Below, one piece after another: positions 37,465 to 54,356 of a stretch of 64,000 nucleotides of DNA. This stretch comes from Magnetococcales bacterium (GTDB lineage Bacteria > Pseudomonadota > Magnetococcia > Magnetococcales > Magnetaquicoccaceae), in contig JAANAU010000005.1 in the NCBI GenBank assembly GCA_011089965.1, forward strand, positions 62,001 through 126,000, read 5' to 3'. How positions within the stretch are numbered: the stretch's first letter is position 1; every line of letters starts with the position of its first letter. Both the position numbers and the translations under genes were made by a program. Under the pieces are notes generated by a model. That model was not told the DNA's origin. It worked only from the letters and a program-made list of their open reading frames with translations, and did no database searches.

Positions 37465-40400
37465 TCAGCTTCCCAAGACCGAGAAGATGGTGGCCAAACC
37501 GTTCGGGTTGTTGCTGGACAACTCGGTGATCTGGGTCGTGGTCATGCCACCCAAGGTCACCCCGCCAAGCGTAATACCGCTGAACTGCGCATCACTGATG
37601 CCACCCAGAGCCGTCGTGGTCAACACGGCGATGTTGGTGGTGGTCAGGTAAGGAATGTCCACATACTCAATGCCGCCAAACTGCGTGGCCGTGAGCGCCA
37701 CCACCTGAGTGGTGGTCAGATTGCCCACCTGGGTCGTGGTCAATGCCGTCACCTGGGTTTTGTTAAAGCCGCCGAACTGCGTACCGGTCAGATAGCGCAG
37801 ATCGGTCGTGGTCAACGCACCCACCGAAGCCGAGGTCAAACTGCCCAGTTGCGTGGCTGTCAATGCACTCACCTGGGTGGTGGAGAGCACTGCCGCATCC
37901 GTGGACTCCAAACCGGCAATCTGCACCGTGGTCAATCCGGTCATCTGGGTGGTGGTGAGCGTACCCACCTGGGTGGTGGTCAGACCCGCCACCTGCGTGG
38001 ACTTGAGACCACCCACCTGCGTGGTGCTCAAAACACGCAACCCGGTGGTGGAGACCGTGTTCAACTGGGTCACGCTCAGAACACCCAACTGGGCCGAAGC
38101 CAGACCGGTCAGTTGCGTGGTGGACAGATTGGTCACCTGGGTGGTGGTCAAGCTGGCCATTGCCGTGACATTGATCCCACCCACCTGGGTCAACGTCAGG
38201 ACGCTGATCTGGGTGGTGGAGATCCCGGTGAACGACGTGCTCTTGAACCCGCTCACCTGCGTGGTGGACAACGAGGCCATGCCGGTGGTGGTGATACCCG
38301 AAATCTGCGTGGTACTTATGGCACCCATCAGCGTGGATTTCAAACCACCGATCTGGGTGGTGCTCAACGTGCGCAACTGGGTGGTGGTCAGGCCGCCCGA
38401 TTGCGTGAGGGTCAAAGCACCCAACTGAGTGGTATTCATGACACTCAACTGGGTGGTGGACAATGCACCATACTCCGTGGAGGTCAAACCACCCACCTGG
38501 GTCACGCTCAGGCTGCCCACCTGGGTCGTGGAGACGAACGACAGTTGGGTCGTGGTCAGATTGCCCACCTGCGTGGACTTCAGACCCGTCACCTGCGTGG
38601 TGCTCAAGGAGCGCAACGCTGTCGTGGTCACGGCATTCATCTGGGTCTGGGTCAATCCACCCACCTGGGTCGCACTCAAACCGCCCACCTGGGTGGTGTT
38701 CAACAGGGTGATCACGGTGGTCACCAAACCGCTCACCTGAGTCCCGGTCAGAGCACCCATCAAGGTCACGGTCAGATTGCCAAACTGGGTCGTGGACAAA
38801 CCAACCATCGAGGTGCTGGACAACCCGGTCAACTGCGTGGTGGACATCGACACCAGAGCCGTGGTGGTCACCGAACGGATCTGGGTTGCAGTCAATCCGT
38901 TGAGTTGCGTTGCCTTCATGCCACTCAACTGAACGGTGGTGATCAAGGCAATTGCGGTGGTGCTCAACCCTCCGGTCTGTTCTTCATCAATGGTTCCCAA
39001 CTGGGTTGCACTCAGATTGGCAACCTGGGTGGTCGTCAGATTGTTCATCTGGGTCGTCGTCAGACCGTCCAACTGAGCCGTACCCAGTGAAGCCACCTGC
39101 GTGGTGCTGAGGATACGCATCTGGGTCGTAGACAATCCTTCAATCTGCGTTGCCTTCAATCCACCCACCTGCGTGGTGTTCAACGAGGCCAAACCGGTGG
39201 TGGTGATCACCATGGCCTGGGTCGTGGACATGGCCCCCAACTGGGTCGAGGTCAGACCCGTCAACAAGGTGGTGCTCAAAACCACCACCCCGGTGGTGGT
39301 CAGGGCACGTACCTGGGTGGCCATCAAACCGCCAAACGCCGTACTGCTCAGGTTCACCACCTGCGTGGTGGTGAGCGCACCCACCTCAGTCACGGTCAAA
39401 CCGGCGATCTGGGTGGCGTTCAAGGTGTTGATGGCGGTCGTGGACACGGAGAACAGTTGGGTCGTGGTCAGATTGGCCAACTGGGTGCTCCGCAGACCGG
39501 TGATCAACGTGGTGGTCAGATTGGCAATGCCGGTCGTGGTCACGTTGCCCACCTGAGTCACGGTCAACGCACTCATCTGCGTGGTGGAGAGTCCGCGCAG
39601 TTGCGTGGTGCTCAAGGCCTTGACGCCCGTGGTGGAAAGGCCCGCCACCTGGGTGCCGGAGAAGCCGGTGAGCTGCGTGGTGCTCAGCATGGCGGTCTGC
39701 GTCGTTGACATCACACCCAATTGCGTGGATTTGAGACCACTCACCTGGGTGGTGTTGAGACTCTGCAACTCGGTCGTGCTCAGAGCCTGTGTCAAGGTCG
39801 AGGTCAACTGACCCAACTGTGTGGCCAACAGGCTTGCCACCTGGGTCGTGGTCAGGTTCACCACGGCAGTGGTGGAGAGACCCGCCACCTGCGTACCGCT
39901 CAGGGCAGCCACCTGGCTGACGGTCAATGAGCGCAACTGGGTCGTGGAGACCGCACCCAGAGCCGTGACATTCAAAGCTCCGATCTGTGTGGTGCCCATG
40001 GATGAAAGACCGGTGGTGGTGATCGCTGCCACCTGCGTGGTGGAGAGCGCCTGCACCTGGGTCGCTTTCAGGCTGCCCAATTGCAGGGTGGTGAGATTCA
40101 CCATGCCGGTGGTGGAGACCCCGCCAAGCTGGGTGGCCGTCAATCCCGCCACCTGGGTGGTGCGCAGATTGGCCAGTTGCGTGGTACTCAGGGTACGGAT
40201 CGCGGTGGTGGACAGCCCCAGCATCTGGGTGGCCGAGAGGGATGCCAGTTGCGTATAGGCCATGTTGCCCAGCGCCGTGGTGGTCAGGAAGCCAAGCTGC
40301 GTACCGGTCAGACCGTTCAGCTGGGTCGTGCTCATGGTGGCCAGGCGGGTGGTGCTCAACAGCACCACGCTCGTCGTGGACAAAACACCCATGCCCTGGG

Positions 40401-43365
40401 TGGTCATGCCACCGATCTGCGTCGTGCTCAGATTGTTGAATCCGGTCGTCGTCAAACCACCGATCTGGGTGGCATTGAACGAATTGATCTGGGTGGCATT
40501 CAAACCGCTCAATTGGGTGGTGGAGAGACCACCCATGGCAGTCATGCTCATGCCATCCAACTGGGTGGTGCTGAGTGCGCCCATCATCGTGGTGGTGATC
40601 ACCCCCAGATGAGTGGTGGTCAATCCGGTCAACTGGGTGGACTTCAGACCCGACAACTGCACGGTGGAGAGCAGTTGGAAGGCCGTGGTGGTCAATCCGC
40701 TCACCTGGGTCGTGGTCAGGGAACCCAACTGGGACGCCACCAGATTGGTGACCTGGGTGGTGGTCATGTTGGTCATGGCCGTGGTGGTCAGACCACCGAC
40801 CTGCGTGGCAGACAGGGAACTCATCAACGTGGTGGAGAGAATCCGCACCTGCGTGGTACTCAGGTTGCCAAGCTGGGTGACCTGCAAACCAGTCAACTGG
40901 GTGGTATTCAGGTTGACCATCTGCGTGGTGCTCATCACCGCCATTTGCGTGGTGGAGAGGGTACGCAACTGCGTGGACTTGATGCCTCCAAGCTGCGTGA
41001 CGCTCAGGTTGAGCAGGGCGGTCGTGGTCAAGGTGGTGAGCTGTCGGGTCGTGAACGCACCCACCTGGGTGGAATCCATCACACTGATCTGGGTGGTGGA
41101 CAAGGAGGCCATACCCGTGGTGGAGAGACCGGTCAGTTGCGTGGTGCTCAGGCTCACCATCTGTGTGGTGGAGAGAATGGCGCTCTGCGTGGTGGTCATG
41201 ATCCCCAACTGGGTGCTCTTCAGACCATCCAACTGGGTGGTATTCAGGTTTCTCAGACCTGTGGTGGTCATGGCGCCCAACTGGGTGGCACTCAGCCCGC
41301 CCACATGGGTCAGGGTCAGACCTGACAGTTGGGTCGTACTCATCAGGGTCATGGCCGTGGTCGGAATCCCCGTCACCTGCACCGAGGTCAAGGCCGCCAT
41401 GTGGGTCGCGTTCAGGATCCCAAACTGGGTGGTGGTGACCGATCCCAACTCAGTGGTGGTCAACCCGCCAACCTGGGTCGTGGAGAGTGCGGCCAGGCCG
41501 GTGGTGGTGACACTGCGGATCTGGGTGTAGCTCAGGTTGCCGATCTGGGTGCTGCGCAGACCGCCAATCTGTGTGGTATTCAAGAGAGTGATACCCGTGG
41601 TGGTCAGGCCCGCCATCTGGGTTGCGTTCAAACCGCCCACCAGCGTCGCATTCAGGTTGGCGATCTGGGTCGTGGACAGACCTGTCACCTGGGTCACTTT
41701 GAGGCCCGCCACCTGGGTGATGTTCAGCCCGCTCAACTGGGTCGTGGTGACACTGAGGGTCTGGGTCGTGGTCAAGGCACCCAGTTGCGTGCCCAGCAGA
41801 CCGGAGAGCTGCACAGTGGAGAGTCCGGCAATCTTGGTGGTCGAAAGCCCCCCGAGCTGGGTCTGAGTAACCTGGCCGATCTGCGTTGCGGACAATCCGG
41901 TGAGCTGGGTGGTACTGATCGATCCCAACTGGGTCACCGACAAGGAGGTCAACGCATTGGACGTCAACCCGCCCATCTGCGTGGTGGTCAGGATGGCACC
42001 CTGGGTTGTGGTCAACGCACCAACCAGCGTGGTGCTCAAACCGCTCAACTGGGTGGTATTCAGACTTTGTATGCGCGTTGTGGAGAGATTGGAGAGCTGG
42101 GTGGTGGTCAGGCTGTTGACCTGGCGGGTGGTCATACCGGTCAACTGGGTGGTGGAGAGAACCCCCATGCCGGTGGTGGTGACACTCGAAACCTGGGTGA
42201 CCGTCAAAGTGCCGAACTGGGTGGTGGTCAGGGCACTCACCTGGGTCGTGGAGAGCGACCGGACTGCCGTGGTGGTCAGACTGGTCAGACGGGCAGTGCT
42301 CAATCCAGCGACCTGCGTGGTGGAGAGTATACCGGTCTGGGTCGTGGACATGGATTGCAGCGTGGTCGATTTCAACCCGTTCAGCTGGGTGCTGCTCATC
42401 GCCTGGATCATGGTGGTGGAGACCACACCGCCCTGGGTGACGCTCAACTGCCCCATCTGGCTGGAGGTCAGCCCCGTGACCTGGGTGGTGGTCAAGGCTG
42501 CCACCATGGTGGTGGTCAATACGCCCACCTGGGTGGCATTCATCACACCCACGGCAGTCGCAGACAAACCACGCAACTGGGTGGTGGTCAGGGCACCCAC
42601 CGAGGTGGAGGCGAGTCCGCCCAACTGGGTGGTGGTGATGGACGCCAATTCGGTGGTGCTGACGCTGCCCAACTGGGTCGTGGACAAGGCATTGAGCTGG
42701 GTGGCTTTCAGGCCCGTAAACTGAACCGCGCTCAGATTGAGGATCTGGGTGGTGGAGATTCCGCCCATCTGGGTGACCGTGACGCTGCCCACCTGCGTGG
42801 TGGTCAACGCGGTGAGCTGAGTGGTCGAGATGGCACGAACCGCGGTGAGGGTCAATCCGGTCAACTGCGTTCCCGTAAGTGCGGCAATCTGCGCCGTACC
42901 CAATCCCGTGACCTGGGTCGTGGACAAGGCACTGAGCTGGGTGGATTTCAAACCACTCAACTGCACTGTGCTCAGGTTGGCAATGCGGGTCGTGGCCAGC
43001 ACACCCACCTGGGTCGTGGTCAGCGCACCCAACTGGGTGGACTTGATCCCGGTGAGCTGAGTCGTCGTCAACGAGGCCACACCCGTGGTCGTGAAGCTGC
43101 GCACCTGCGCCGAACTGAGTCCGCCCACATGCGTTGCCGTGAACGCCGACAGTTGCGTGGTGTTCAACACGCCCGACTGCGTGGAACTCAACCCACTCAA
43201 CTGAGTCGTGGAGAGATTCGCGATGGAAGTCGTCCGGAGAAAGGAGACCTGTGTCGTCGACAGATATCCAAGCATCGTTGCCGTATAGGATGCAAGCGTG
43301 CTGGAGTTCAGGTTTGAAATACTGGTGGTGCTGATCGCTTGCATCTGGGTGCTTGTGATAGGCAT
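37465..43365 (-). CDS. Giant octapeptide-repeat protein, putative type I-secreted surface protein
   Basis: 1,966 residues. From about residue 36 to 1,930 the whole chain is an 8-residue tandem repeat (roughly 235 copies), consensus xTTQ[LVI]xx[LIV], e.g. STTQLSGL, TTTQVGNL, NTTQIGGL. Composition is Thr, Ser, Gln, Leu, Gly and Val; I see no Cys or Trp and few charges. Lys/Arg occur mainly in recurring GLKSTQ-type octads, spaced irregularly but often 10 or 14 octads apart, hinting at a higher-order period. Octads starting with Asn give N-x-T sequons. The short N-terminus has no signal peptide; the C-terminus (SSNNPNGLATIFSVLGS) is non-repetitive; no RTX nonapeptides. The spacing of hydrophobics suggests a solenoid. 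AGAGGAG precedes the ATG. Same strand downstream of a type I exporter. Confidence 0.88.
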   Translation of the reverse strand: MPITSTQMQAISTTSISNLNSSTLASYTATMLGYLSTTQVSFLRTTSIANLSTTQLSGLSSTQSGVLNTTQLSAFTATHVGGLSSAQVRSFTTTGVASLTTTQLTGIKSTQLGALTTTQVGVLATTRIANLSTVQLSGLKSTQLSALSTTQVTGLGTAQIAALTGTQLTGLTLTAVRAISTTQLTALTTTQVGSVTVTQMGGISTTQILNLSAVQFTGLKATQLNALSTTQLGSVSTTELASITTTQLGGLASTSVGALTTTQLRGLSATAVGVMNATQVGVLTTTMVAALTTTQVTGLTSSQMGQLSVTQGGVVSTTMIQAMSSTQLNGLKSTTLQSMSTTQTGILSTTQVAGLSTARLTSLTTTAVRSLSTTQVSALTTTQFGTLTVTQVSSVTTTGMGVLSTTQLTGMTTRQVNSLTTTQLSNLSTTRIQSLNTTQLSGLSTTLVGALTTTQGAILTTTQMGGLTSNALTSLSVTQLGSISTTQLTGLSATQIGQVTQTQLGGLSTTKIAGLSTVQLSGLLGTQLGALTTTQTLSVTTTQLSGLNITQVAGLKVTQVTGLSTTQIANLNATLVGGLNATQMAGLTTTGITLLNTTQIGGLRSTQIGNLSYTQIRSVTTTGLAALSTTQVGGLTTTELGSVTTTQFGILNATHMAALTSVQVTGIPTTAMTLMSTTQLSGLTLTHVGGLSATQLGAMTTTGLRNLNTTQLDGLKSTQLGIMTTTQSAILSTTQMVSLSTTQLTGLSTTGMASLSTTQISVMDSTQVGAFTTRQLTTLTTTALLNLSVTQLGGIKSTQLRTLSTTQMAVMSTTQMVNLNTTQLTGLQVTQLGNLSTTQVRILSTTLMSSLSATQVGGLTTTAMTNMTTTQVTNLVASQLGSLTTTQVSGLTTTAFQLLSTVQLSGLKSTQLTGLTTTHLGVITTTMMGALSTTQLDGMSMTAMGGLSTTQLSGLNATQINSFNATQIGGLTTTGFNNLSTTQIGGMTTQGMGVLSTTSVVLLSTTRLATMSTTQLNGLTGTQLGFLTTTALGNMAYTQLASLSATQMLGLSTTAIRTLSTTQLANLRTTQVAGLTATQLGGVSTTGMVNLTTLQLGSLKATQVQALSTTQVAAITTTGLSSMGTTQIGALNVTALGAVSTTQLRSLTVSQVAALSGTQVAGLSTTAVVNLTTTQVASLLATQLGQLTSTLTQALSTTELQSLNTTQVSGLKSTQLGVMSTTQTAMLSTTQLTGFSGTQVAGLSTTGVKALSTTQLRGLSTTQMSALTVTQVGNVTTTGIANLTTTLITGLRSTQLANLTTTQLFSVSTTAINTLNATQIAGLTVTEVGALTTTQVVNLSSTAFGGLMATQVRALTTTGVVVLSTTLLTGLTSTQLGAMSTTQAMVITTTGLASLNTTQVGGLKATQIEGLSTTQMRILSTTQVASLGTAQLDGLTTTQMNNLTTTQVANLSATQLGTIDEEQTGGLSTTAIALITTVQLSGMKATQLNGLTATQIRSVTTTALVSMSTTQLTGLSSTSMVGLSTTQFGNLTVTLMGALTGTQVSGLVTTVITLLNTTQVGGLSATQVGGLTQTQMNAVTTTALRSLSTTQVTGLKSTQVGNLTTTQLSFVSTTQVGSLSVTQVGGLTSTEYGALSTTQLSVMNTTQLGALTLTQSGGLTTTQLRTLSTTQIGGLKSTLMGAISTTQISGITTTGMASLSTTQVSGFKSTSFTGISTTQISVLTLTQVGGINVTAMASLTTTQVTNLSTTQLTGLASAQLGVLSVTQLNTVSTTGLRVLSTTQVGGLKSTQVAGLTTTQVGTLTTTQMTGLTTVQIAGLESTDAAVLSTTQVSALTATQLGSLTSASVGALTTTDLRYLTGTQFGGFNKTQVTALTTTQVGNLTTTQVVALTATQFGGIEYVDIPYLTTTNIAVLTTTALGGISDAQFSGITLGGVTLGGMTTTQITELSSNNPNGLATIFSVLGS

Positions 43366-43804: not shown

Positions 43805-45196
43805 TCACCGCTCCTTGAGACTCTCATCCTTGATGCTGATCAGAGTGTGGAGAAAATACTCGATCAAGCGACGCGACCCCACCTTGATGTTGGCGGTCAC
43901 GGTCATGCCACGGATCAGGCGCGCCCCCTCGGGCAGATACTCCAGATCGCTTTTGGTCAGATGGACACGTCCGACGTGAAACGCCCCACCCATGGGATTG
44001 GCTGTCTGATCACGCCCCTCCCCCCCTCCGGAATAGGACTCCTGACTGACAAACCGCAACTGCCCTTCCAGGATGCCATGCCGTTGATATGGAAAGGCAT
44101 TCACCTTGATCACCACCCGGTCTCCGGCCTGGACATATCCCACATCCACGGAATTGAGCAGAATCTCGGCAATGAACGGCGCGTCCGCCGGTACTATCGA
44201 GATCAACAGCTCTGCCGGATTCAGGATCGATCCCATGGCACGCTTGGCCACTTCCAGCACCACCCCATCCACCGGCGAAGTCATCACCTCCATCTCGCTC
44301 AGACGCCGCGCCTTGATCACCTGTTCGTTGAGCCTGGTGGCCTCGCTCCGGACTGCAATCAACTGATCGGTCAGATTGCGGCTCCACTCATCCATGAAAG
44401 TCTGACGTTGCGCCTTTTTGACCTCCAGTTCGTGACGCTGCTCCACCAGACGGTTCACGGCATCCTGAAACGCCTGCTCCGTGCGCACACGGTTGGCCTT
44501 TGAGTCCTGATAATGGAGTTGACTGCCGGTTCCGCTCTTCTGCAAGGTGTCGCGCATCCCCTCCACCTCCTTGTAAATCTTCAACAAGGTGGCCAAGGAG
44601 TTCCGGTCATCCTCGGTAGAGCGCAGATTGGCCTGAATGCGCCGGATCTCTTCGTCCAACATCTGCAAACGCGACCGGTACTCGGCCTGACGGCGCTGCA
44701 TCAAGGACCATTGCAACCGCTCATCCCCATCCGGCTCCGGCCCGATCTCCCACGGCTTCTGCGCCAGCTCCTGCTCCAGACGGCGCAACTGCACATCGAG
44801 GGTCCGCTGTTGCGCCAGCAATGCGGTCAAATCCGCTGTGGCAAAGGTGGAGTCAAAGGTGGCCAGCACCTGTCCCCGGGTCACCGCATCCCCGGCTTTG
44901 ACCTTCAACTCCTTGATGATCGCCCGATCCAAAGGTTGAAGCTGCATCGGCGGCGAGTCGGTGGTGAGACGCCCCGTGGCGGTCACGATCATGTCCACCT
45001 CCACCACCGAGGCCACAATCGTCACCGAAACAATCGCGCCAATAATCAAATAAAACACCGACATGATCCAAAACGACGGGTTCTCCGCAATGATCACGTC
45101 AATGCCCACCTGAAAGGGGATGGCATCCGGAACCACCTGACCCTCCCAGAAGCGGCTCCACATGCGCCGCCACACCCGTTGCAGCGTTTGTTTCAT
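43805..45196 (-). CDS. HlyD-family type I secretion membrane fusion protein
   Basis: 463 residues from ATG 45196, two bases after the stop of the ABC transporter gene. One N-terminal membrane helix (about 42-65, FYLIIGAIVSVTIVASVVEV), biotinyl-lipoyl halves (IKELKVKAGDAVTRGQVLATFD near the start; VDGVVLEVAKRAMGSILNPAE later), a long coiled coil between about residues 120 and 320, and a C-terminal beta-barrel region with VKVNAFPYQRHGILEGQLRFVS and GARLIRGMTVTANIKVGSRRLIEYFL, the latter typical of HlyD/LapC. It would link the inner-membrane ABC exporter to a TolC-type outer-membrane channel, not encoded here. Confidence 0.92.
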   Translation of the reverse strand: MKQTLQRVWRRMWSRFWEGQVVPDAIPFQVGIDVIIAENPSFWIMSVFYLIIGAIVSVTIVASVVEVDMIVTATGRLTTDSPPMQLQPLDRAIIKELKVKAGDAVTRGQVLATFDSTFATADLTALLAQQRTLDVQLRRLEQELAQKPWEIGPEPDGDERLQWSLMQRRQAEYRSRLQMLDEEIRRIQANLRSTEDDRNSLATLLKIYKEVEGMRDTLQKSGTGSQLHYQDSKANRVRTEQAFQDAVNRLVEQRHELEVKKAQRQTFMDEWSRNLTDQLIAVRSEATRLNEQVIKARRLSEMEVMTSPVDGVVLEVAKRAMGSILNPAELLISIVPADAPFIAEILLNSVDVGYVQAGDRVVIKVNAFPYQRHGILEGQLRFVSQESYSGGGEGRDQTANPMGGAFHVGRVHLTKSDLEYLPEGARLIRGMTVTANIKVGSRRLIEYFLHTLISIKDESLKER

Positions 45197-45198
45197 GA

Positions 45199-47370
45199 TC
45201 ACTCCCCACCCTCGGGCCGGGAATAACCGGTCTGCTGCTCCCACAGATGACGATAGATCTCACACCGCTCCAGAAGCTCGTCATGAGGAGCGAAATCAAT
45301 GACTTCACCTCTATCCAGCACCAGAATGGCATCGGTCGAAACCAGCGAGGAGAGCCGATGCGACACGATGATCATGGTCCGCCCCTGAGAGATCCGGTTC
45401 AGGCTGTGACGGATGATCGCCTCGCTCTCCGGATCCAGGGCGCTGGTCGCCTCATCGAAGATCAACAACCGCGGACTCAACAGCAAGGCACGGGCAATGG
45501 CGATCCTCTGGCGCTGCCCCCCGGAGAAATTGCTGGCATTCTCCTCCACCCAGGTCTCATACGAATGGGGCAGCCGGTCGATGAACTCATCGGCCCCGGC
45601 CAACTTTGCCGCCTCGATCACCTCCAGAAGGGTTGCCTCGGGACGACCGGCGGCAATATTTTCCCGGATCGTACCCCGGAACAGGATGTTCTCCTGCAAC
45701 ACCACGCCAATGCTGCGCCGCAGATGGGGCAGATCAAAGTGACGGATGTCATGACCGTTCAAGTGGATCAACCCCTCCTGGGCATTGTGGATCCCCTGAA
45801 TCAGGCGGGTGATGGTGGTCTTGCCCGACCCGGAACGGCCCACCACCCCGATCATCTGCCCCTCGTTCACCTGGAACGACACCCGCTTCAAGGCCGGCAA
45901 TGCTGACCGGTCATAGCGGAAAGTCACATCCTTGAACTCGATCTGGCCGGTCACCGGCATGCGAATGCCGCGCTGATTGGGATCGCGTTCCAGAGGATGG
46001 TTCATCACCTCGCCCAACATGCGCACGGCCAGGGCGGTCTGCTGATATTCGTTGATCAATCCGACGATCTGCACCAGAGGTCCGGTGACCCGTCCGGACA
46101 GCATGTTGAAGGCCACCAGGGCACCAAGACTCATCGCGTTGTCAAACACCTGCAAGGCACCCACTCCGATGATGGAGATCTGCATGCCCGATTGCAGCGT
46201 GGTGGTCAACACCGACGCCTTGATGCCGAACAGACCCACCCGCGCCCGGTTCAGGATCGACACCGCCACCTTGCGATCCCAGGCTGCCATGCGCAGCGGC
46301 TCCAAGGCCATGGACTTGACCGCGCGCATGCCATGGATGGTCTCGACCAGATCGGCCTGTCGCATCCCCTCGGCATTGTACAGGCTCTCCAGATAGCGCC
46401 GGAACGTGGGCAGCATCACGGCAATCACCAGGGCAATGGCCAGTGTGAAGACCAGTACCACGGCGGTCAACGGACCGCTGTACAGGGTCAGCCCCACCAG
46501 ATAGAGCGGCAAGGTGGCGGCATCCAGCAGGGTGTGAAACAGTGTCCCGGTCAGAAAATTCCGCACCACCTCGGTCTGCTGCATATGCCGGATCAGAATT
46601 CCGGTGGTCTGACTCTCAAAAAATGGCATCGGCAGATGCAGCAGATGGTGAAACGACCGGGAGAGCAGACGGGCATCGATCTTGTTGGTCGCCACCAGCA
46701 TCAGATACTGGCGCACATAGTGAAACATCCCGTCGAACAGAATGATCAACAATAAAATAAACATCAGACTCATCAGGGTCTGATGGCTCTGATGGGGGAT
46801 CACCCGGTCAATCATGATGTTGAAAAAAACCGGAGTGGCCAACCCGAGAAAGCTGGACAGGATCGCGGCAATGGCCACATTGCGCAACAGTTTGCCCTGA
46901 TTGAAGATCTCCGGCAGAAACCAGCTCAACCCGAACGGCTTGCGGGTGATCTCCTGCTCATGTTCCCGCTTGCACAGAATCAGCACGCCGCTCCAGTCGG
47001 CCTCGAACTCCCGACGGTTCAGAAGGCGCGGTCCGCCCTGTTCCCAACGGGGATCGAGCAGCGTGACACTCTCTTCGTCATCCGAAGCGCGCGCCACGCG
47101 CGTCACCACCAGCCAGTGGCCATCCCGGGTTTCGGCCAGCACCGGATAGGCCCCGCCCAACCCGGTCAGATCGCGCCATTTGCGCCCGGTCAACACCGCC
47201 CCTTTCAGACCGGTCTCTTGCATCAGACGCAACATCGAACCCACGATGTCCGCCTCGCGCGCACCCAGCAGTTGCTCAGGCGTGATATCCACACCATGGT
47301 GCCGACAGAGCAGGAACAGACAACGCAGCGCCGACAGAAATGGCGTCACAGAAGAATCAGTGGTACTCAA
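45199..47370 (-). CDS. Type I secretion ABC transporter with degenerate C39-like domain
   Basis: 723 residues: N-terminal peptidase-C39-like domain (about 8-130), six-helix transmembrane domain (about 160-430), nucleotide-binding domain (about 480-710; VVGRSGSGKTT, NFSGGQRQRIAIARALL, LLIFDEATSALD, IIVSHR). In the C39-like part, the place of the catalytic Cys is taken by Ser (FLSALRCLFLLCRHHG), as in HlyB/LapB-type transporters that bind rather than cut their substrate. So it should export a protein without a GG leader, agreeing with the giant repeat protein downstream. Start TTG 47370 is provisional; a GTG at 47349 is also possible. Confidence 0.92.
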   Translation of the reverse strand: MSTTDSSVTPFLSALRCLFLLCRHHGVDITPEQLLGAREADIVGSMLRLMQETGLKGAVLTGRKWRDLTGLGGAYPVLAETRDGHWLVVTRVARASDDEESVTLLDPRWEQGGPRLLNRREFEADWSGVLILCKREHEQEITRKPFGLSWFLPEIFNQGKLLRNVAIAAILSSFLGLATPVFFNIMIDRVIPHQSHQTLMSLMFILLLIILFDGMFHYVRQYLMLVATNKIDARLLSRSFHHLLHLPMPFFESQTTGILIRHMQQTEVVRNFLTGTLFHTLLDAATLPLYLVGLTLYSGPLTAVVLVFTLAIALVIAVMLPTFRRYLESLYNAEGMRQADLVETIHGMRAVKSMALEPLRMAAWDRKVAVSILNRARVGLFGIKASVLTTTLQSGMQISIIGVGALQVFDNAMSLGALVAFNMLSGRVTGPLVQIVGLINEYQQTALAVRMLGEVMNHPLERDPNQRGIRMPVTGQIEFKDVTFRYDRSALPALKRVSFQVNEGQMIGVVGRSGSGKTTITRLIQGIHNAQEGLIHLNGHDIRHFDLPHLRRSIGVVLQENILFRGTIRENIAAGRPEATLLEVIEAAKLAGADEFIDRLPHSYETWVEENASNFSGGQRQRIAIARALLLSPRLLIFDEATSALDPESEAIIRHSLNRISQGRTMIIVSHRLSSLVSTDAILVLDRGEVIDFAPHDELLERCEIYRHLWEQQTGYSRPEGGE

Positions 47371-47841: not shown

Positions 47842-50800
47842 ATGAAAACCGGCAAAACCAAAACCCGCACCCCCTCCCTGGCCCCCATGGATGCCCTGAT
47901 CCAACAGGCCCTGGAACACCATCAGGCCCATCGGCTGGATGAGGCGGAACAGCTCTATCGTCAGGTTTTGCGCACCCAACCCCGCCATCAGGACGGACTC
48001 AATCTGCTCGGGTTTCTCCTCCATCAACGGGGCCAGCACACCGAGGCCATCACCCTGATCCACAAGGCCATCCAGATCGACCCGAAACAGCCGCTGTTCC
48101 ACAACAATCTGGGCATTGTCCTGCAAAACTCCGGACAGACCGAACCGGCCATCGCCAGTTATGAGCAGGCCCTGCGCATCGATCCCAACCACCATGCGGC
48201 CTTAAGCAACCTCGGCACCCTGTACCAGGCCCAGGGCCGCTTTGAAGAGGCCATCCGCTGTCAGGAACGGGTGCTGCACCTGGATCCCGCCTTTTTCGAG
48301 GCCCATGCCAATCTCGGCAACATCCACTGCGAACTCAAACAGTTCGAGCAGGCTGTCCCCTGTTATCTCCAGGCCATCAAGCTCAAACCCGACTATGTCA
48401 ACGCCATGCACAACCTGGCGTACGCCCTGCAAAAACTGGAACGCCTCACCGAGGCGCTCCACTGGCTCGATCAGGCATTGACCCTCCGCCCCGACTACAT
48501 CGAGGCACTCAACTGTCAAGGCAACGTGCTGCAAGACCTGGGACGCTGGAACGAAGCCATTGCCTGCTACCAGAAAGCACTCCAGATCCAGCCCCACTAT
48601 CACGAAGCCCTCTGCAACCTCGGCAATGTGCTGTGCGATCAAGGCCGTCTGGAGGAGTCCATCGCCTGTCACCAGCAGGCACTGGCCATCAAACCCGATC
48701 TCCATCAATCCTATACCCACATGGGCAATGCATACCAGATGCAGGAACGGATGGATGAGGCCATGGCCAGCTATCGGCAGGCGCTGGCCATTCACCCGGG
48801 GGACGAAACCGCTCTGGAGAATCTCGGCGTGGCCTGCAATGTGGTCGGGGATCTCACCGGCGCCATTGCATGCAGCCGTCAACTGCTGACCGTCAAACGG
48901 GATGACCCCAATGTGATCGCCACCCTGCTCAACCTGATGCGTCAGGCGTGCGACTGGTCCGATTCCGAACCGTTGCTGGCCGAGATGATGCGGCTCTTTC
49001 ACACCACCCAAAAGATCATCAATCCCTTTGTCTTTCTCACCCTGCCCACCACGCCGCAAGAGCAGAAACGGTGCGCTGAAATCTATATGGAGCGCAAATA
49101 TCGCGCCCGACGCAACCTGGCAGCCCAGCCCACCCACGATCCTGACCCGCAACGCCTCAGGATCGGGTATCTCTCCTGCGATTTTCTCAACCATGCCACG
49201 GCCATCCTCATGGCCGAGTTGATCCAGTTGCATGATCGCAGCCGGTTTGAAATCATCCTCTACTCCTATGGGGATGACGATGGCCGCGAGATGCGCCAGA
49301 GAATCATCACGGCAGGTGACCGCTTTGTGGAGCTGCGCCATGTGGACCATGAGAATGCCGCCCGCCAGATCCATGCCGATGGCATCCACATCCTGGTGGA
49401 GCTGAAAGGATACACCAAAGGGGCACGCCTGGAGATCGCAGCCCAACGCCCGGCCCCGTTGCAGGTGAGCTGGCTCGGCTATCCCGGCACCATGGGGGCC
49501 GAACACATCGACTACATCATCGCCGACCCCTTCATCATCCCCCACGGCCAGGAACACCACTACACCGAAAAAGTGGTGCGCCTGCCCCACTGCTATCAAC
49601 CCAATGACCGGCTGCGCGCCCTGCCGGAGTCCGGCCCCTCACGCCAGGCATGCGGACTGCCCGCAGAAGGGTTGATCTTTGCCAATTTCAACCAAACCTA
49701 CAAAATCACCCCCGAAATCTTCGCCGCCTGGATGGCGCTGTTGCGTCAGGTTCCAGACAGCATTCTCTGGCAGCTCGAATCCAACCCGCTGGTGGCCGAC
49801 AACCTGCGCCAGGCCGCCTCACAGGCCGGCATCGATCCGACCCGCCTTTGCTTTGCCCCCAAGCTGTCGGTTCCCGACCATCTGGCGCGCTATCATCTGG
49901 TGGATCTGGTTCTGGACACCTATCCCGTCACCTCGCACACCACAGCCAGCGATGCCCTCTGGATCGGTGCCCCCCTGATCACCATTGCCGGCGACACCTT
50001 TGTGGCGCGCGTGGCCGGCAGCCTGCTCCACACCATCGGCGCCCCGGAACTGGTGACCCACTCCCTGGAAGAGTACACCCGCCTGGCTCTTGAGCTGGCA
50101 CGGGATCCCGAACGTCTGCGCGCCCTGCGTACACGTCTGCAAGCCAATCGGGCCAGCACTCCGTTGTTCGACACCCCGCGTTTCACCCATGATCTGGAAG
50201 CGGTGTATGAGGCGATCTGGCAACGCCATGCAGCGGGTTTGCCTCCGGACCACATCGACATCCCACCGTCCGCTCCAACCTCGGATCTGGCCATGCCGAC
50301 CCCAACCACGCCCATGCCCCGCTTCGTCGCAGCCCCCACCCCGACTCCGGCTCATGCCGTCCAGACCGAAGCGGCCCACACTCCGATCCATCTGTCCATC
50401 TGCATCACCGTGGAACCCGATCAACGTTCTTTGCTGGCTGCCACCCTGGAGTCGCTTCAGTGGACCATCCAGCCGGAACAGACCATAGAGATCGTGGTGA
50501 TCGATCTGCCGCGCCAGCCACGGGAGCAGCCCATTCTTATGCCTGCGGTTCCCGGTTTTCCCTGCGCACGCCGCATGATGTTCCCCCATGCCCTGACCGG
50601 CGCGGAACGGATCCATGCTGCCCTGTTGCAAGGCAAGGGGCGTTTCCTGCTCCATTTGGGGTGCGGGGATCGACTGGTGCCTGAGGTGGTCTGGTCCGAG
50701 TTGCACTGGCTGGAGCAGCACCCGGAGGCCGCAGCCACTCATGCCCCCTGGCAGATCTGGCACGAAGCCACCCGGGAGGATCTCGGATGTTTCTACTCTT

Positions 50801-51633
50801 TGGATCAGGTCCACACCTTTGGGGCAACGCAAGGGGCCGAACTGTTCAATTTCATCGTGCAAAACCAGATCTTCCCGGAGGTGGCCATCCACCGCGCCGC
50901 CTGTTTCACGCGCACGGCATTTGATCCGCAGGGGGTGTTCTCTCCTTTGCTGCTCCTGTTCCGCACGCTGCCTCACGGGACCATACGTTTTCAGCCCCAA
51001 CCGTTTCTGGTATCGGTCATGCGCCCCCTGGCCGCCGGGTCTGACACGGCAGCCAACCAGGTCATCCACCAGTTGGATCACTATCGCGCCGGCCTGGAGT
51101 TGGCCGCTTCCGCGGCCATATCGGCCATTGGCATGCAGGAGTTCGCACCGGGCAACCGGGAGGTGGTTTTGGATCTGATCAATGATTTCCTGGTGCGGCG
51201 CCTGCTGGTGGCTGCCAATCTGATGCAGGCACAAGGGGATGCCATGGCAGCGGTTTTCTGTCTGAAGCGGGCGTTGCTGTGGTCCAAGAGTGATGCGGAT
51301 CGACAGTTCATTCGTGGGCAGGAGGCGACGTTGATGACCGCCGCAGCCTATCAGGCCATTCGTGCGCGGTTTGATGCCTTGCCGGGTGTCACCCGACTGG
51401 TCTGTTGCGAGGTCAGCAATCCGGAGGTGATCCGGGCCGGTTTGCGCATGATCGCTCCGGCCATGCCCACCGAAGTGGGTGGATTGACCACGATTCAACA
51501 GGCCGATGGCTCGCAGGCATTGTATCTGACCGAGCAGGAACCGGTACGCACCGCACTGTTGCAATCCGGCATTCCGGCAGGACAGGTGTTGCTCATCGCC
51601 GATCTGTTGCAGATGTTCCGGATTGCCGGTTGA
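47842..51633 (+). CDS. TPR-GT41 (OGT/SPINDLY-like) glycosyltransferase fused to a GT-A-like domain
   Basis: 1,263 residues. About ten TPR units (residues 17-355), then a GT41 catalytic region (about 435-790): RIGYLSCDFLNHATAILM (His 451), GIHILVELKGYTKGARLE (His 516), SWLGYPGTMGA, NFNQTYKITPE (Lys 621) and HTTASDALWIGAPLIT, matching the catalytic and UDP-binding positions of human OGT. A Pro/Thr linker (800-850) leads to a GT2-like domain (LSICITVEPDQRSLLAATLESL; FLLHLGCGDRLVPEVVW) in which the usual DxD is replaced by CGD. GT41 enzymes glycosylate Ser/Thr (OGT) or Asn (HMW1C) of cytoplasmic proteins. It is divergent from the type I exporter and its repeat substrate. Confidence 0.9.
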   Translation: MKTGKTKTRTPSLAPMDALIQQALEHHQAHRLDEAEQLYRQVLRTQPRHQDGLNLLGFLLHQRGQHTEAITLIHKAIQIDPKQPLFHNNLGIVLQNSGQTEPAIASYEQALRIDPNHHAALSNLGTLYQAQGRFEEAIRCQERVLHLDPAFFEAHANLGNIHCELKQFEQAVPCYLQAIKLKPDYVNAMHNLAYALQKLERLTEALHWLDQALTLRPDYIEALNCQGNVLQDLGRWNEAIACYQKALQIQPHYHEALCNLGNVLCDQGRLEESIACHQQALAIKPDLHQSYTHMGNAYQMQERMDEAMASYRQALAIHPGDETALENLGVACNVVGDLTGAIACSRQLLTVKRDDPNVIATLLNLMRQACDWSDSEPLLAEMMRLFHTTQKIINPFVFLTLPTTPQEQKRCAEIYMERKYRARRNLAAQPTHDPDPQRLRIGYLSCDFLNHATAILMAELIQLHDRSRFEIILYSYGDDDGREMRQRIITAGDRFVELRHVDHENAARQIHADGIHILVELKGYTKGARLEIAAQRPAPLQVSWLGYPGTMGAEHIDYIIADPFIIPHGQEHHYTEKVVRLPHCYQPNDRLRALPESGPSRQACGLPAEGLIFANFNQTYKITPEIFAAWMALLRQVPDSILWQLESNPLVADNLRQAASQAGIDPTRLCFAPKLSVPDHLARYHLVDLVLDTYPVTSHTTASDALWIGAPLITIAGDTFVARVAGSLLHTIGAPELVTHSLEEYTRLALELARDPERLRALRTRLQANRASTPLFDTPRFTHDLEAVYEAIWQRHAAGLPPDHIDIPPSAPTSDLAMPTPTTPMPRFVAAPTPTPAHAVQTEAAHTPIHLSICITVEPDQRSLLAATLESLQWTIQPEQTIEIVVIDLPRQPREQPILMPAVPGFPCARRMMFPHALTGAERIHAALLQGKGRFLLHLGCGDRLVPEVVWSELHWLEQHPEAAATHAPWQIWHEATREDLGCFYSLDQVHTFGATQGAELFNFIVQNQIFPEVAIHRAACFTRTAFDPQGVFSPLLLLFRTLPHGTIRFQPQPFLVSVMRPLAAGSDTAANQVIHQLDHYRAGLELAASAAISAIGMQEFAPGNREVVLDLINDFLVRRLLVAANLMQAQGDAMAAVFCLKRALLWSKSDADRQFIRGQEATLMTAAAYQAIRARFDALPGVTRLVCCEVSNPEVIRAGLRMIAPAMPTEVGGLTTIQQADGSQALYLTEQEPVRTALLQSGIPAGQVLLIADLLQMFRIAG

Positions 51634-51728: not shown

Positions 51729-54128
51729 TCACCCGCGCACCTGACCCAACAACTCCAGCACCAAAGCCACCTGGTGTGGATCCGCACCCTGTCTGCCAGC
51801 CTGCTCCACCAGCGCCACCACCGGCTTGATCAAGGCATGGACCAGATGGGTACGTTGTTCCAGGGTCAATGCCGCCATCTGCCCCGGCAACTCCCCTGCC
51901 CCCCGTGCCACCTCCTGGGGATTGTTGAAAATCACCCCCCCCAGACACAATCCCACAGCCAACACCGCATGTCGATAACCGGCATTGGCCAACAGCATGG
52001 AGACAACATACGCAGCCCGCACCCGATCCTGAATCATGGCCTGCGCCACGGCCAGCAACTGATCCGCAGGATCATGACCCGCCTGGGAAACGAAATGGAT
52101 CAAACCGTTCAGATCATCCGCATCATCCCACTCCAACAGCACTTCCAGAAACGGTCGCTGACGGGCTGCACGGGCACGATTTTCAGCAGACCACAAACGC
52201 CCATCATCCGGGAGATAGGCCAACCGGTCACGTTCCACAAGCTTTCCCAGATAGGCATCCTTCAATCGTTCCACCGTACCGAACCAGACGCCGTCGGTCG
52301 CATCCAGCTCAATGGCGATCTCCCGATACAGCTCCAGATTGGACAGATCAGGCCGGGGCAGACGATTCTCCAAAAATGCCGCGCGCATCTGCCGATACAA
52401 CCCCTCCAGACTCGACACCAGCAACGGAGTGTCAAACAACACGCAGCTCTCCCGCCCGGCAGCCAGACGGGTCCGATAGTGATCCAGCAACTCCCGGTTG
52501 CGCCCCAGCTCCACGGCGCGCGCCACAAACGCATCCGGACCCGTACACACCAGATCCCCCAAACCCGCAGCCGTCACCAGACTCCCGCACACCCGGGCCG
52601 CAAACGACAATCCCGCCATGGTCAAGATCGGCACCCCCATCCACAAGGCGTCCGATGCCGTGGTGTGCGCCCCATACGGGGTGGAATCCAACATCAGATC
52701 CACCAGAGGATAACGGGCCATGTGTTGTGCATGGGGCAGACGCGGGGCGAACACAATCCGTTCCGCAGCAATCCCCCGCCCCGTGGCCAATGTCACCAGC
52801 CGCTCTTTGGCCGCATCATTTTCATGCAACAACCATAAAACACTCCCTTCCACCTGTTCCAATACCCGCATCCACAAATCCCAGGTATGAGGGGTGATCT
52901 TTTTGGTTCCGTTGAAACAGCCATACACCATCACACCGTCCGGCAAACCAACGGCCTGCCGATCCGGACGGTACGGATCCACGACACGCTGACGATCATT
53001 GGGCTGATAACAAGGCAGCCGCATGACCTGTTCGGAGTAGCAAAACTCCAGCTCTTCCGGAACGATGAAACCGTCCGTGATCAGATAATGGTGATACGGC
53101 GACCCCATGGTGCCAGGATATCCCAGCCAGTTGACGATCACCGGGGCCGGACGCATGGCCAACATCCGGGTGCGGGCGCTGTGGGTATAACCGTTCACAT
53201 CCACCAGAATCTCAATGCCATCCGCCACAATCAAGGCAGCCAGTTCCGCATCCCCCAGCCCATACGCATCCCGCCACTGCTCCACTGCCCCCCGAATCCG
53301 CTGCTTCATCGGATCCTCAATCGGCAGGCCCACCGCATACACGAACACCTCAACCTGCTGTCGGTCATGCAGTTCAAACAGCTCGGCCATCAGAAAACCA
53401 ATCGCATGCACACGCAGATCCGACGACAGATACCCAACCCGGATCCGGGGCGGCGGAGCGCGCCGCAATGCCTGATGCGCCTTCAGGTCCACGGTCGCAG
53501 GCTGACCGATGTCCGAACGATGAAACATGGCGGTATTGGCCAACTGCCACAACGGATCATCGGTGAAGACTGCCAAAGACAAAGGCGCGAAACCGCGCAT
53601 CAAATGGTTACGATCACACCCGCCAAACGGTTCGATCACCGGCCAGTCACACCGGGTCTGACGACCATTGATCCAGTGTTCGCGCACCTCGGGATGACGC
53701 GGATCGATCTCCAGCACCTGGCGCAGAAAATCCCCGGAGTCCACCGGACCCAACACCCGGGCCATCTGCTTGAGAGCCGAACTCTTGTACTGAATGTTCT
53801 CTCCCGTGACCACCGACAGACGCTCGGCCAAGGTGCGCCAACACGCCACCGCATCGCCGGGCAGACCCAACCGCTCCAATGCATTGCCCAGATTGATGTA
53901 GCTTGGATAAAAATCCGGCTGCAACCCAATCGCCTCTTCAAAAGCCTGCCGGGCACCGGCATGGTCCTGGCTGTTGAGCAGCACCACCCCGAGGTTGTAC
54001 AACGCAAAGTGACGCTGCGGATGGTCCACCTGCATTGCCAACCACTCCCGATACAAACCGATGGTCTCTTCAAGCTGCCCGGCCTGCATCCACCGATCGG
54101 CATGACCGATCAACTCCACGAGATTCAT
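51729..54128 (-). CDS. Second TPR-GT41 (SPINDLY-like) glycosyltransferase
   Basis: 799 residues from ATG 54128, preceded by AGGTGA; an ATG four codons earlier is possible. Short TPR part (about 1-160), GT41 region (about 225-580): RVGYLSSDLRVHAIGFLM, GIEILVDVNGYTHSAR, NWLGYPGTMGS, CFNGTKKITP and HTTASDALWMGVPILT. The second OGT histidine (GIH) is Glu here, as is common in bacterial SPINDLY proteins. A C-terminal helical region of about 200 residues (FLEVLLEWDDADDLNGLIHF, later leucine-rich) has no recognised family. It is only distantly similar to the first GT41 enzyme, so it is an old paralogue rather than a recent duplicate. Confidence 0.88.
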   Translation of the reverse strand: MNLVELIGHADRWMQAGQLEETIGLYREWLAMQVDHPQRHFALYNLGVVLLNSQDHAGARQAFEEAIGLQPDFYPSYINLGNALERLGLPGDAVACWRTLAERLSVVTGENIQYKSSALKQMARVLGPVDSGDFLRQVLEIDPRHPEVREHWINGRQTRCDWPVIEPFGGCDRNHLMRGFAPLSLAVFTDDPLWQLANTAMFHRSDIGQPATVDLKAHQALRRAPPPRIRVGYLSSDLRVHAIGFLMAELFELHDRQQVEVFVYAVGLPIEDPMKQRIRGAVEQWRDAYGLGDAELAALIVADGIEILVDVNGYTHSARTRMLAMRPAPVIVNWLGYPGTMGSPYHHYLITDGFIVPEELEFCYSEQVMRLPCYQPNDRQRVVDPYRPDRQAVGLPDGVMVYGCFNGTKKITPHTWDLWMRVLEQVEGSVLWLLHENDAAKERLVTLATGRGIAAERIVFAPRLPHAQHMARYPLVDLMLDSTPYGAHTTASDALWMGVPILTMAGLSFAARVCGSLVTAAGLGDLVCTGPDAFVARAVELGRNRELLDHYRTRLAAGRESCVLFDTPLLVSSLEGLYRQMRAAFLENRLPRPDLSNLELYREIAIELDATDGVWFGTVERLKDAYLGKLVERDRLAYLPDDGRLWSAENRARAARQRPFLEVLLEWDDADDLNGLIHFVSQAGHDPADQLLAVAQAMIQDRVRAAYVVSMLLANAGYRHAVLAVGLCLGGVIFNNPQEVARGAGELPGQMAALTLEQRTHLVHALIKPVVALVEQAGRQGADPHQVALVLELLGQVRG

Positions 54129-54356
54129 GTCACCTGCCATGCTTTAGCCTCTCCACGCTGTCATGCATTCGTCCACCGGAATTCCTCCGGAAAACATGAT
54201 CTTTGCCTTGCCAAATGTCAAATGGTTTTTCACCTGGGAACCGACAAGGCCCAAACCTGAAAAAATTATTTTGCAGAATTCAGAATCCTTTAAGCTTGCT
54301 CCTCTAAGATGAGCCGATCATCTTTCGATAACATCCGAATCCTGGAGTATCCGGAC

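Follow-up and report, generated by a model that had tools for sequence, protein, structure and literature searches.

We analyzed a 64,000-nucleotide stretch of DNA, the window, from a Magnetococcales bacterium (family Magnetaquicoccaceae; GenBank assembly GCA_011089965.1, contig JAANAU010000005.1, positions 62,001 to 126,000 of the forward strand), and in particular a gene in it that encodes a TPR-GT41-(pseudo)GT2 fusion protein. The gene (47842..51633, + strand) is an open reading frame (ORF) with an ATG start and 1263 codons for amino acids. The encoded protein begins with a tetratricopeptide repeat (TPR) region (residues 18-360; 47893..48921, +) in which Pfam recognizes nine TPR_1 stretches. 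This is followed by a GT41 glycosyltransferase domain, placed by Pfam and alignment (approximately residues 395-805; 49024..50256, +), that contains H451, H516, K621 and HTTASD (residues 699-704). A linker (residues 806-849; 50257..50388, +; 11 Pro, 8 Ala and 8 Thr of 44 residues) leads to a GT2-derived GT-A domain plus helices (residues 847-1166; 50380..51339, +), defined by predicted fold and family alignment. Within it is a degenerate metal site, LGCGDRL (residues 939-945; 50656..50676, +), aligned with ADDDR in intact relatives. The chain ends in an alpha/beta subdomain (residues 1176-1263; 51367..51630, +) that was seen in the predicted model and had no informative fold match. We refer to residues 847-1263 as the C-terminal domain (CTD).

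We found that the GT41 part has the sequence features of OGT-like GT41 enzymes: a profile match over both lobes (PF13844, two stretches, E 1.6e-99), N-terminal TPRs, the catalytic lysine and the HTT..D motif of the donor pocket. Drosophila OGT aligned with this part at E 6e-91 and human OGT at ~1e-89; HMW1C-type GT41 proteins gave only a weak match (E 1.1e-5). Lys621 aligned on the conserved lysine of the human OGT construct. An excerpt of a report on human OGT names Lys842 as the key catalytic residue (PMC4683255), and Lys621 would be its equivalent, based on the NFNQ.YKI motif and our own numbering. The GT41 residues were intact in all eight fused copies aligned (the copy from genome G010 was left out of the alignment). 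The fusion protein is probably a cytoplasmic, OGT-type protein glycosyltransferase, a putative assignment made from sequence.

The nature of the CTD was less apparent. The C-terminal 419 residues matched no Pfam family at E <= 10, and the CTD as a query matched nothing among PDB sequences or in NCBIfam. We recognized the CTD as GT2-derived from its relatives and its predicted fold. It belongs, over its full length, to a family shared with proteins that match PF00535, indicating descent from GT2 enzymes. An AlphaFold2 model (alignment of 26 sequences) had a predicted local distance difference test score (pLDDT) of 86.1 and a predicted template modeling score of 0.78. Foldseek gave 209 matches to the PDB at E <= 0.001, of which the best listed was 5hea, the CgT domain of dGT1 (E 1e-10); RmlT, GalNAc-T2, chondroitin polymerase and TarS were among the others. 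With VIA-align 2, the model aligned with RmlT (Z 19.0, root-mean-square deviation 5.2, 277 aligned residues) and with chondroitin polymerase (Z 18.4, deviation 3.5, 233 aligned), the matches falling within model residues 1-324. Based on these matches, CTD residues 1 to ~320 are predicted to have a GT-A fold with extra helices. An earlier note on this DNA had proposed the TPR-GT41-GT-A architecture, the Pro/Thr-rich linker and the positions of His451, His516 and Lys621, and had suggested structure prediction of the C-terminal region. The three residues are at the stated positions, and our results confirm the triple architecture and, by structure prediction, the GT-A fold.

The last 96 residues of the CTD form a separate alpha/beta piece (pLDDT 89 when folded alone). 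Its model had no Foldseek match at E <= 0.001, and its best VIA-align 2 score (Z 6.8) was insufficient to name a fold. The same subdomain also ends two GT4-like ORFs (L091:3-968 and L092:310-1464), which suggests that it could be mobile and serve for docking.

We compared the GT2 motifs in 39 CTD sequences, 9 fused to GT41 and 30 not fused. The DDD site was kept in 29 of the 30 non-fused sequences. The sole exception came from genome G001, in a tandem protein (L098:2422-5517) with a pair of CTD-type GT2 modules; its first module is intact, whereas its second, the exception, is degenerate and reads MGVGD. Seven of the nine fused sequences had lost the metal site and read xGD; all seven, including the window copy, have Gly at the position of the metal-binding Asp, which we located by aligning chondroitin polymerase and TarS. 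These seven have likewise lost PTYNR and SDNAS; three of them, including the window copy, retained the Asp of SDNAS. The remaining two fused sequences have acidic sites, SDDN in G001 and ADHD in G003 (His at the metal-Asp position), and both matched PF00535 (E 1.5e-18 and E 2.3e-14, respectively). In a PF00535 scan of ten CTD relatives, six matched, and the four without a match were degenerate fused copies. The FPE loop was retained in all nine fused sequences. The earlier note had taken CGD as the DxD site of the window protein. Residues 941-943 are indeed C-G-D, but the canonical DxD aligns to G940-C941-G942, and the retained D943 is the next residue after it. That is, the site is lost, and we rejected CGD as a DxD variant.

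The earlier note had also suggested two roles for the fusion, the addition of a first sugar and its binding or extension by one protein or, alternatively, a GT-A domain that is a non-catalytic binding module. If the protein were bifunctional, GT41 would add a first sugar and the CTD a second, using a metal-independent or rebuilt GT-A site. The G001 and G003 copies that still match PF00535, the FPE loop in every fused copy, and the neighboring GT41 and CTD-type GT2 genes of some Rhizobiaceae (below) are consistent with this, as is the top fold match, since CgT is described as the C-terminal GT-A domain of a dual glycosyltransferase (PMC5063993, seen in excerpt). However, erosion has affected each of the three GT2 motif regions, in differing ways among members of the degenerate group, and the window CTD is beyond the reach of Pfam. 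Considered as a dual transferase of the dGT1 type, the window protein has lost the GT2 motifs, which argues against two active domains. Addition and extension fits G001, G003 and the separate Rhizobiaceae genes; for the window protein we consider bifunctionality rather unlikely. A non-catalytic module fits it better, because the motifs are lost throughout its clade and the domain is still constrained, although the loss of activity is itself deduced from these features.

The architecture recurs. Of 11 genomes from the window's genus, 9 have the GT41-CTD fusion, which indicates that it is more than a chance joining. No genome outside the genus had it among the 61 genomes compared (the window's own and its relatives) and a sample of 299 genomes from the phylum. 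CTD relatives were present in 15 of the 61 genomes (the window's own included) and in 21 of the 299 (E <= 1e-15). CTD-bearing open frames outside the genus were 230 to 623 residues long. The window's own genome also has a paralog that is not part of a fusion, on contig C22 (38% identity; PF00535 E 1.3e-21). Scanning genome contigs gave 36 CTD loci, 10 from Magnetococcales and 26 from Alphaproteobacteria, mostly Rhizobiaceae. We built a tree of 36 rows, leaving out the partial rows G006_FUSp, G004_C253 and G020_C38; some long rows in it are possibly misplaced. Six of the seven degenerate fused rows were used, and they formed one clade with support of 100/100, and the two intact fused rows adjoined it. 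This arrangement fits one fusion followed by loss of the site.

We also estimated ratios of nonsynonymous to synonymous substitution (dN/dS; NG86 method) over the first 320 CTD residues. The ratio was 0.19-0.38 in five pairs of degenerate copies and 0.04-0.27 in six of eight intact pairs (no dS was obtained for the other two, which this range excludes). For the GT41 part of the same degenerate pairs it was 0.07-0.34. Within the degenerate clade, identity was 60% for the CTD compared to 82% for GT41. These values suggest that the degenerate CTD is under weakened purifying selection, less constrained than its intact relatives and far from neutral. It is conceivable that the CTD is simply decaying after loss of enzyme function and now does little, and its dN/dS above that of intact relatives and its lower identity than GT41 would agree with this. 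In contrast, dN/dS is well below 1, none of the nine fused genes has a stop, and eight of them retain full length, the ninth (in G006) ending with its contig. We regard decay as very improbable.

Type I secretion genes lie next to the fusion gene. Divergent from it is a gene for a type I secretion ATP-binding cassette (ABC) transporter of 723 residues with a C39-like N-terminal domain (45199..47370, -; Pfam; TIGR01846 580.7 bits, cut-off 725.55), followed by a gene for an adaptor of the HlyD family (479 residues; 43805..45244, -; TIGR01843 269.3 bits, above its cut-off). Beyond these is a gene for a 1966-residue protein with ALTTAQ repeats (37465..43365, -; PF20080, E 2e-176, 69 stretches), a candidate for both the cargo of the secretion system and the substrate of the transferase. 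This protein is 25.8% Thr and 10.6% Ser and has no Cys or Trp. The ABC, HlyD and cargo genes cluster with the transferase gene in the window, and in other genomes too. A type I secretion ABC gene was near the fusion gene in all nine fused loci; in eight it adjoins the fusion gene or is separated by one short ORF, and in G008 three ORFs intervene. The HlyD gene was found in seven of the nine loci and the ALTTAQ gene in six. Of the three without it, G007 has other genes in that place, and the loci in G006 and G009 stop where their contigs stop. The earlier note mentioned neither the secretion genes nor the ALTTAQ protein, and these suggest a substrate. On the other side of the fusion gene is a second TPR-GT41 gene (803 residues; 51729..54140, -; PF13844 E 3.1e-71), whose product has Glu at the His516 position and a C-terminal stretch of ~200 residues without a Pfam match.

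ALTTAQ proteins were found in 16 of 18 genomes of the window's family and in none of the 43 others among the 61. One genome from outside the family, G193, also matched ALTTAQ, but we dropped it: a single long ORF accounted for its three local model hits, and the 40 kb fetched showed no GT41. Some of the proteins are very large. In L121 and L122, single open frames with 188 and 194 local model hits encode ALTTAQ proteins several thousand residues long, and G015:C1 has an ALTTAQ open frame of 6436 residues. Among 14 control genomes, PF20080 matched in one, Caulobacter vibrioides, which has GT41 as well.

GT41 and CTD-type GT2 proteins were also found together as separate genes. Six loci contain flagellins, a separate GT41, FliP, a CTD-type GT2, a nucleoside diphosphate-sugar dehydratase and a C-methyltransferase. 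Five of them (L047, L048, L049, L051 and L055, from Neorhizobium and Rhizobium) come from the 26 alphaproteobacterial loci and one (L115, in G264) from the 299-genome sample. Genes were identified by Pfam for L047 and for two L115 flagellins, and otherwise with models built from L047. A further locus, L057, has GT41 near a CTD-type GT2 without flagellin. The other 20 alphaproteobacterial CTD loci had no GT41 in the stretch covered; in 12 of these, dehydratase and C-methyltransferase genes adjoin the GT2 gene. The six flagellin loci show that, in some lineages, GT41 and CTD-type GT2 repeatedly occur in each other's company near exported proteins. FlmG is described in part of one report as a cytoplasmic TPR plus GT-B protein that glycosylates Caulobacter flagellins ahead of export (PMC7591256). 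The fusion protein, too, might act on some other exported protein, such as a flagellin, with the secretion genes beside it only incidentally. The flagellin islands that hold its Rhizobiaceae-type relatives, and the ALTTAQ arrays with no GT41 nearby, agree with this. Against it are the type I secretion gene near the fusion gene in all nine genomes, the ALTTAQ gene in six, and three sister-genus genes encoding several GT41 modules that adjoin ALTTAQ arrays (though seven others, as fetched, show none). We consider such a substrate quite improbable.

The sister-genus genes just mentioned encode giant TPR-GT41 proteins with two to four GT41 modules per chain, read over 2189-3767 residues: L088 (8253-19553, -), L099 (10425-17804), L100 (164-7678, -), L105, L123, L125, L126, L128, L129 and L130. 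Each of the ten proteins examined has at least one module with HTTGSD and at least one with GTTASN or a similar variant (GSTGWD). Two genomes of the window's genus have TPR-GT41 proteins that end in a GT4-like domain (PF20706; L138:1033-4641 and L139:257-3886), and one alphaproteobacterial protein fuses GT41 to a methyltransferase. Proteins in these groups thus commonly carry GT41 joined to another module, and the fusion itself is less surprising for it; more striking is that one donor site has been lost or changed repeatedly.

The explanation that we favor, with a probability of roughly 55%, is that the CTD is of GT2 origin and is now a non-catalytic holding module, and that the fusion protein acts on the ALTTAQ protein exported by type I secretion. 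GT41, guided by the TPRs, would glycosylate Ser and Thr of the ALTTAQ repeats in the cytoplasm, and the adjacent secretion system would export the product. The ancestral CTD may have been a GT2 enzyme acting after GT41, probably adding a second sugar, much as CgT is described as adding a further sugar to Fap1 (PMC5063993). It would have been fused to GT41 once, in this genus, and the window clade would then have lost the nucleotide-sugar and metal site. The degenerate CTD would have been retained to bind glycosylated repeats, the glycan, a partner or another copy of the protein. Binding is the more likely role because the window's clade keeps the FPE loop and the fold but no longer has the donor site; by analogy with GT2 enzymes in general, the FPE loop would be on the acceptor side.

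Several findings weigh against this explanation. The window copy retains D888, D943 and the FPE loop, leaving room for activity, and some GT-A enzymes function without DxD. The relaxed dN/dS is also compatible with slow decay, and the support for the branch uniting the fused group (80/83) is not firm. With regard to the substrate, the G007 fusion locus has no adjoining ALTTAQ gene, GT41 is present in 50 of 61 genomes but ALTTAQ proteins in only 16, and no GT41 was seen in the stretch fetched for four of the family's ALTTAQ loci (L118, L119, L120-L121 and L122).

More tentatively, the locus could be a Gram-negative counterpart of the glycosylation of serine-rich-repeat adhesins. OGT-type enzymes of one Magnetococcales family would add sugar to giant, Thr-rich ALTTAQ proteins that leave the cell by type I secretion; a canonical transferase would have been joined repeatedly to a module whose donor site is altered (the pseudo-GT2, or the variant GT41 of the sister genus); and the altered module would read the glycan just added and make the enzyme work along the repeats. 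We hold these three parts, taken jointly, to be possible but doubtful.

Because close relatives carry the fused domain in both intact and degenerate form, the step from enzyme to binding module is directly testable. Non-catalytic glycosyltransferase partners are known, for example chondroitin polymerizing factor. The locus also points to a specific protein as the candidate substrate of its OGT-like enzyme; to our knowledge, few bacterial enzymes of this kind have one. We found no description of a TPR-GT41-GT2-type fusion in a literature search limited to open-licence papers.

The fusion protein shares TPRs and a GT41 domain with the same key residues with OGT, XcOGT and TtOGT, and FlmG, as described, is a working analogue that acts before export (PMC7591256). 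Unlike these, it has an additional GT2-derived CTD, and its neighbors are type I secretion rather than flagellar genes. RmlT, TarS/TarP and chondroitin polymerase share the GT-A fold over CTD residues 1-324 but are single-family enzymes without GT41, and chondroitin polymerase and TarS keep the metal-site Asp residues in the alignment. HMW1C-type N-glycosyltransferases are also GT41 proteins that glycosylate a large adhesin in the cytoplasm; however, in the account seen in excerpt (PMC3983070), they have an AAD fold instead of TPRs, modify Asn and work with two-partner secretion. There is also a likeness in plan to dGT1 of Streptococcus parasanguinis (DUF1792 plus CgT), described as two transferase domains in one protein with a repeat adhesin as substrate (PMC5063993). 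Among the Foldseek matches listed, the window CTD scored best against its C-terminal CgT part, which consists of GT-A and a helical domain. dGT1 differs in that its first domain is GT-D and not GT41, its CgT is active whereas the window CTD has lost its motifs, and its host is Gram-positive.

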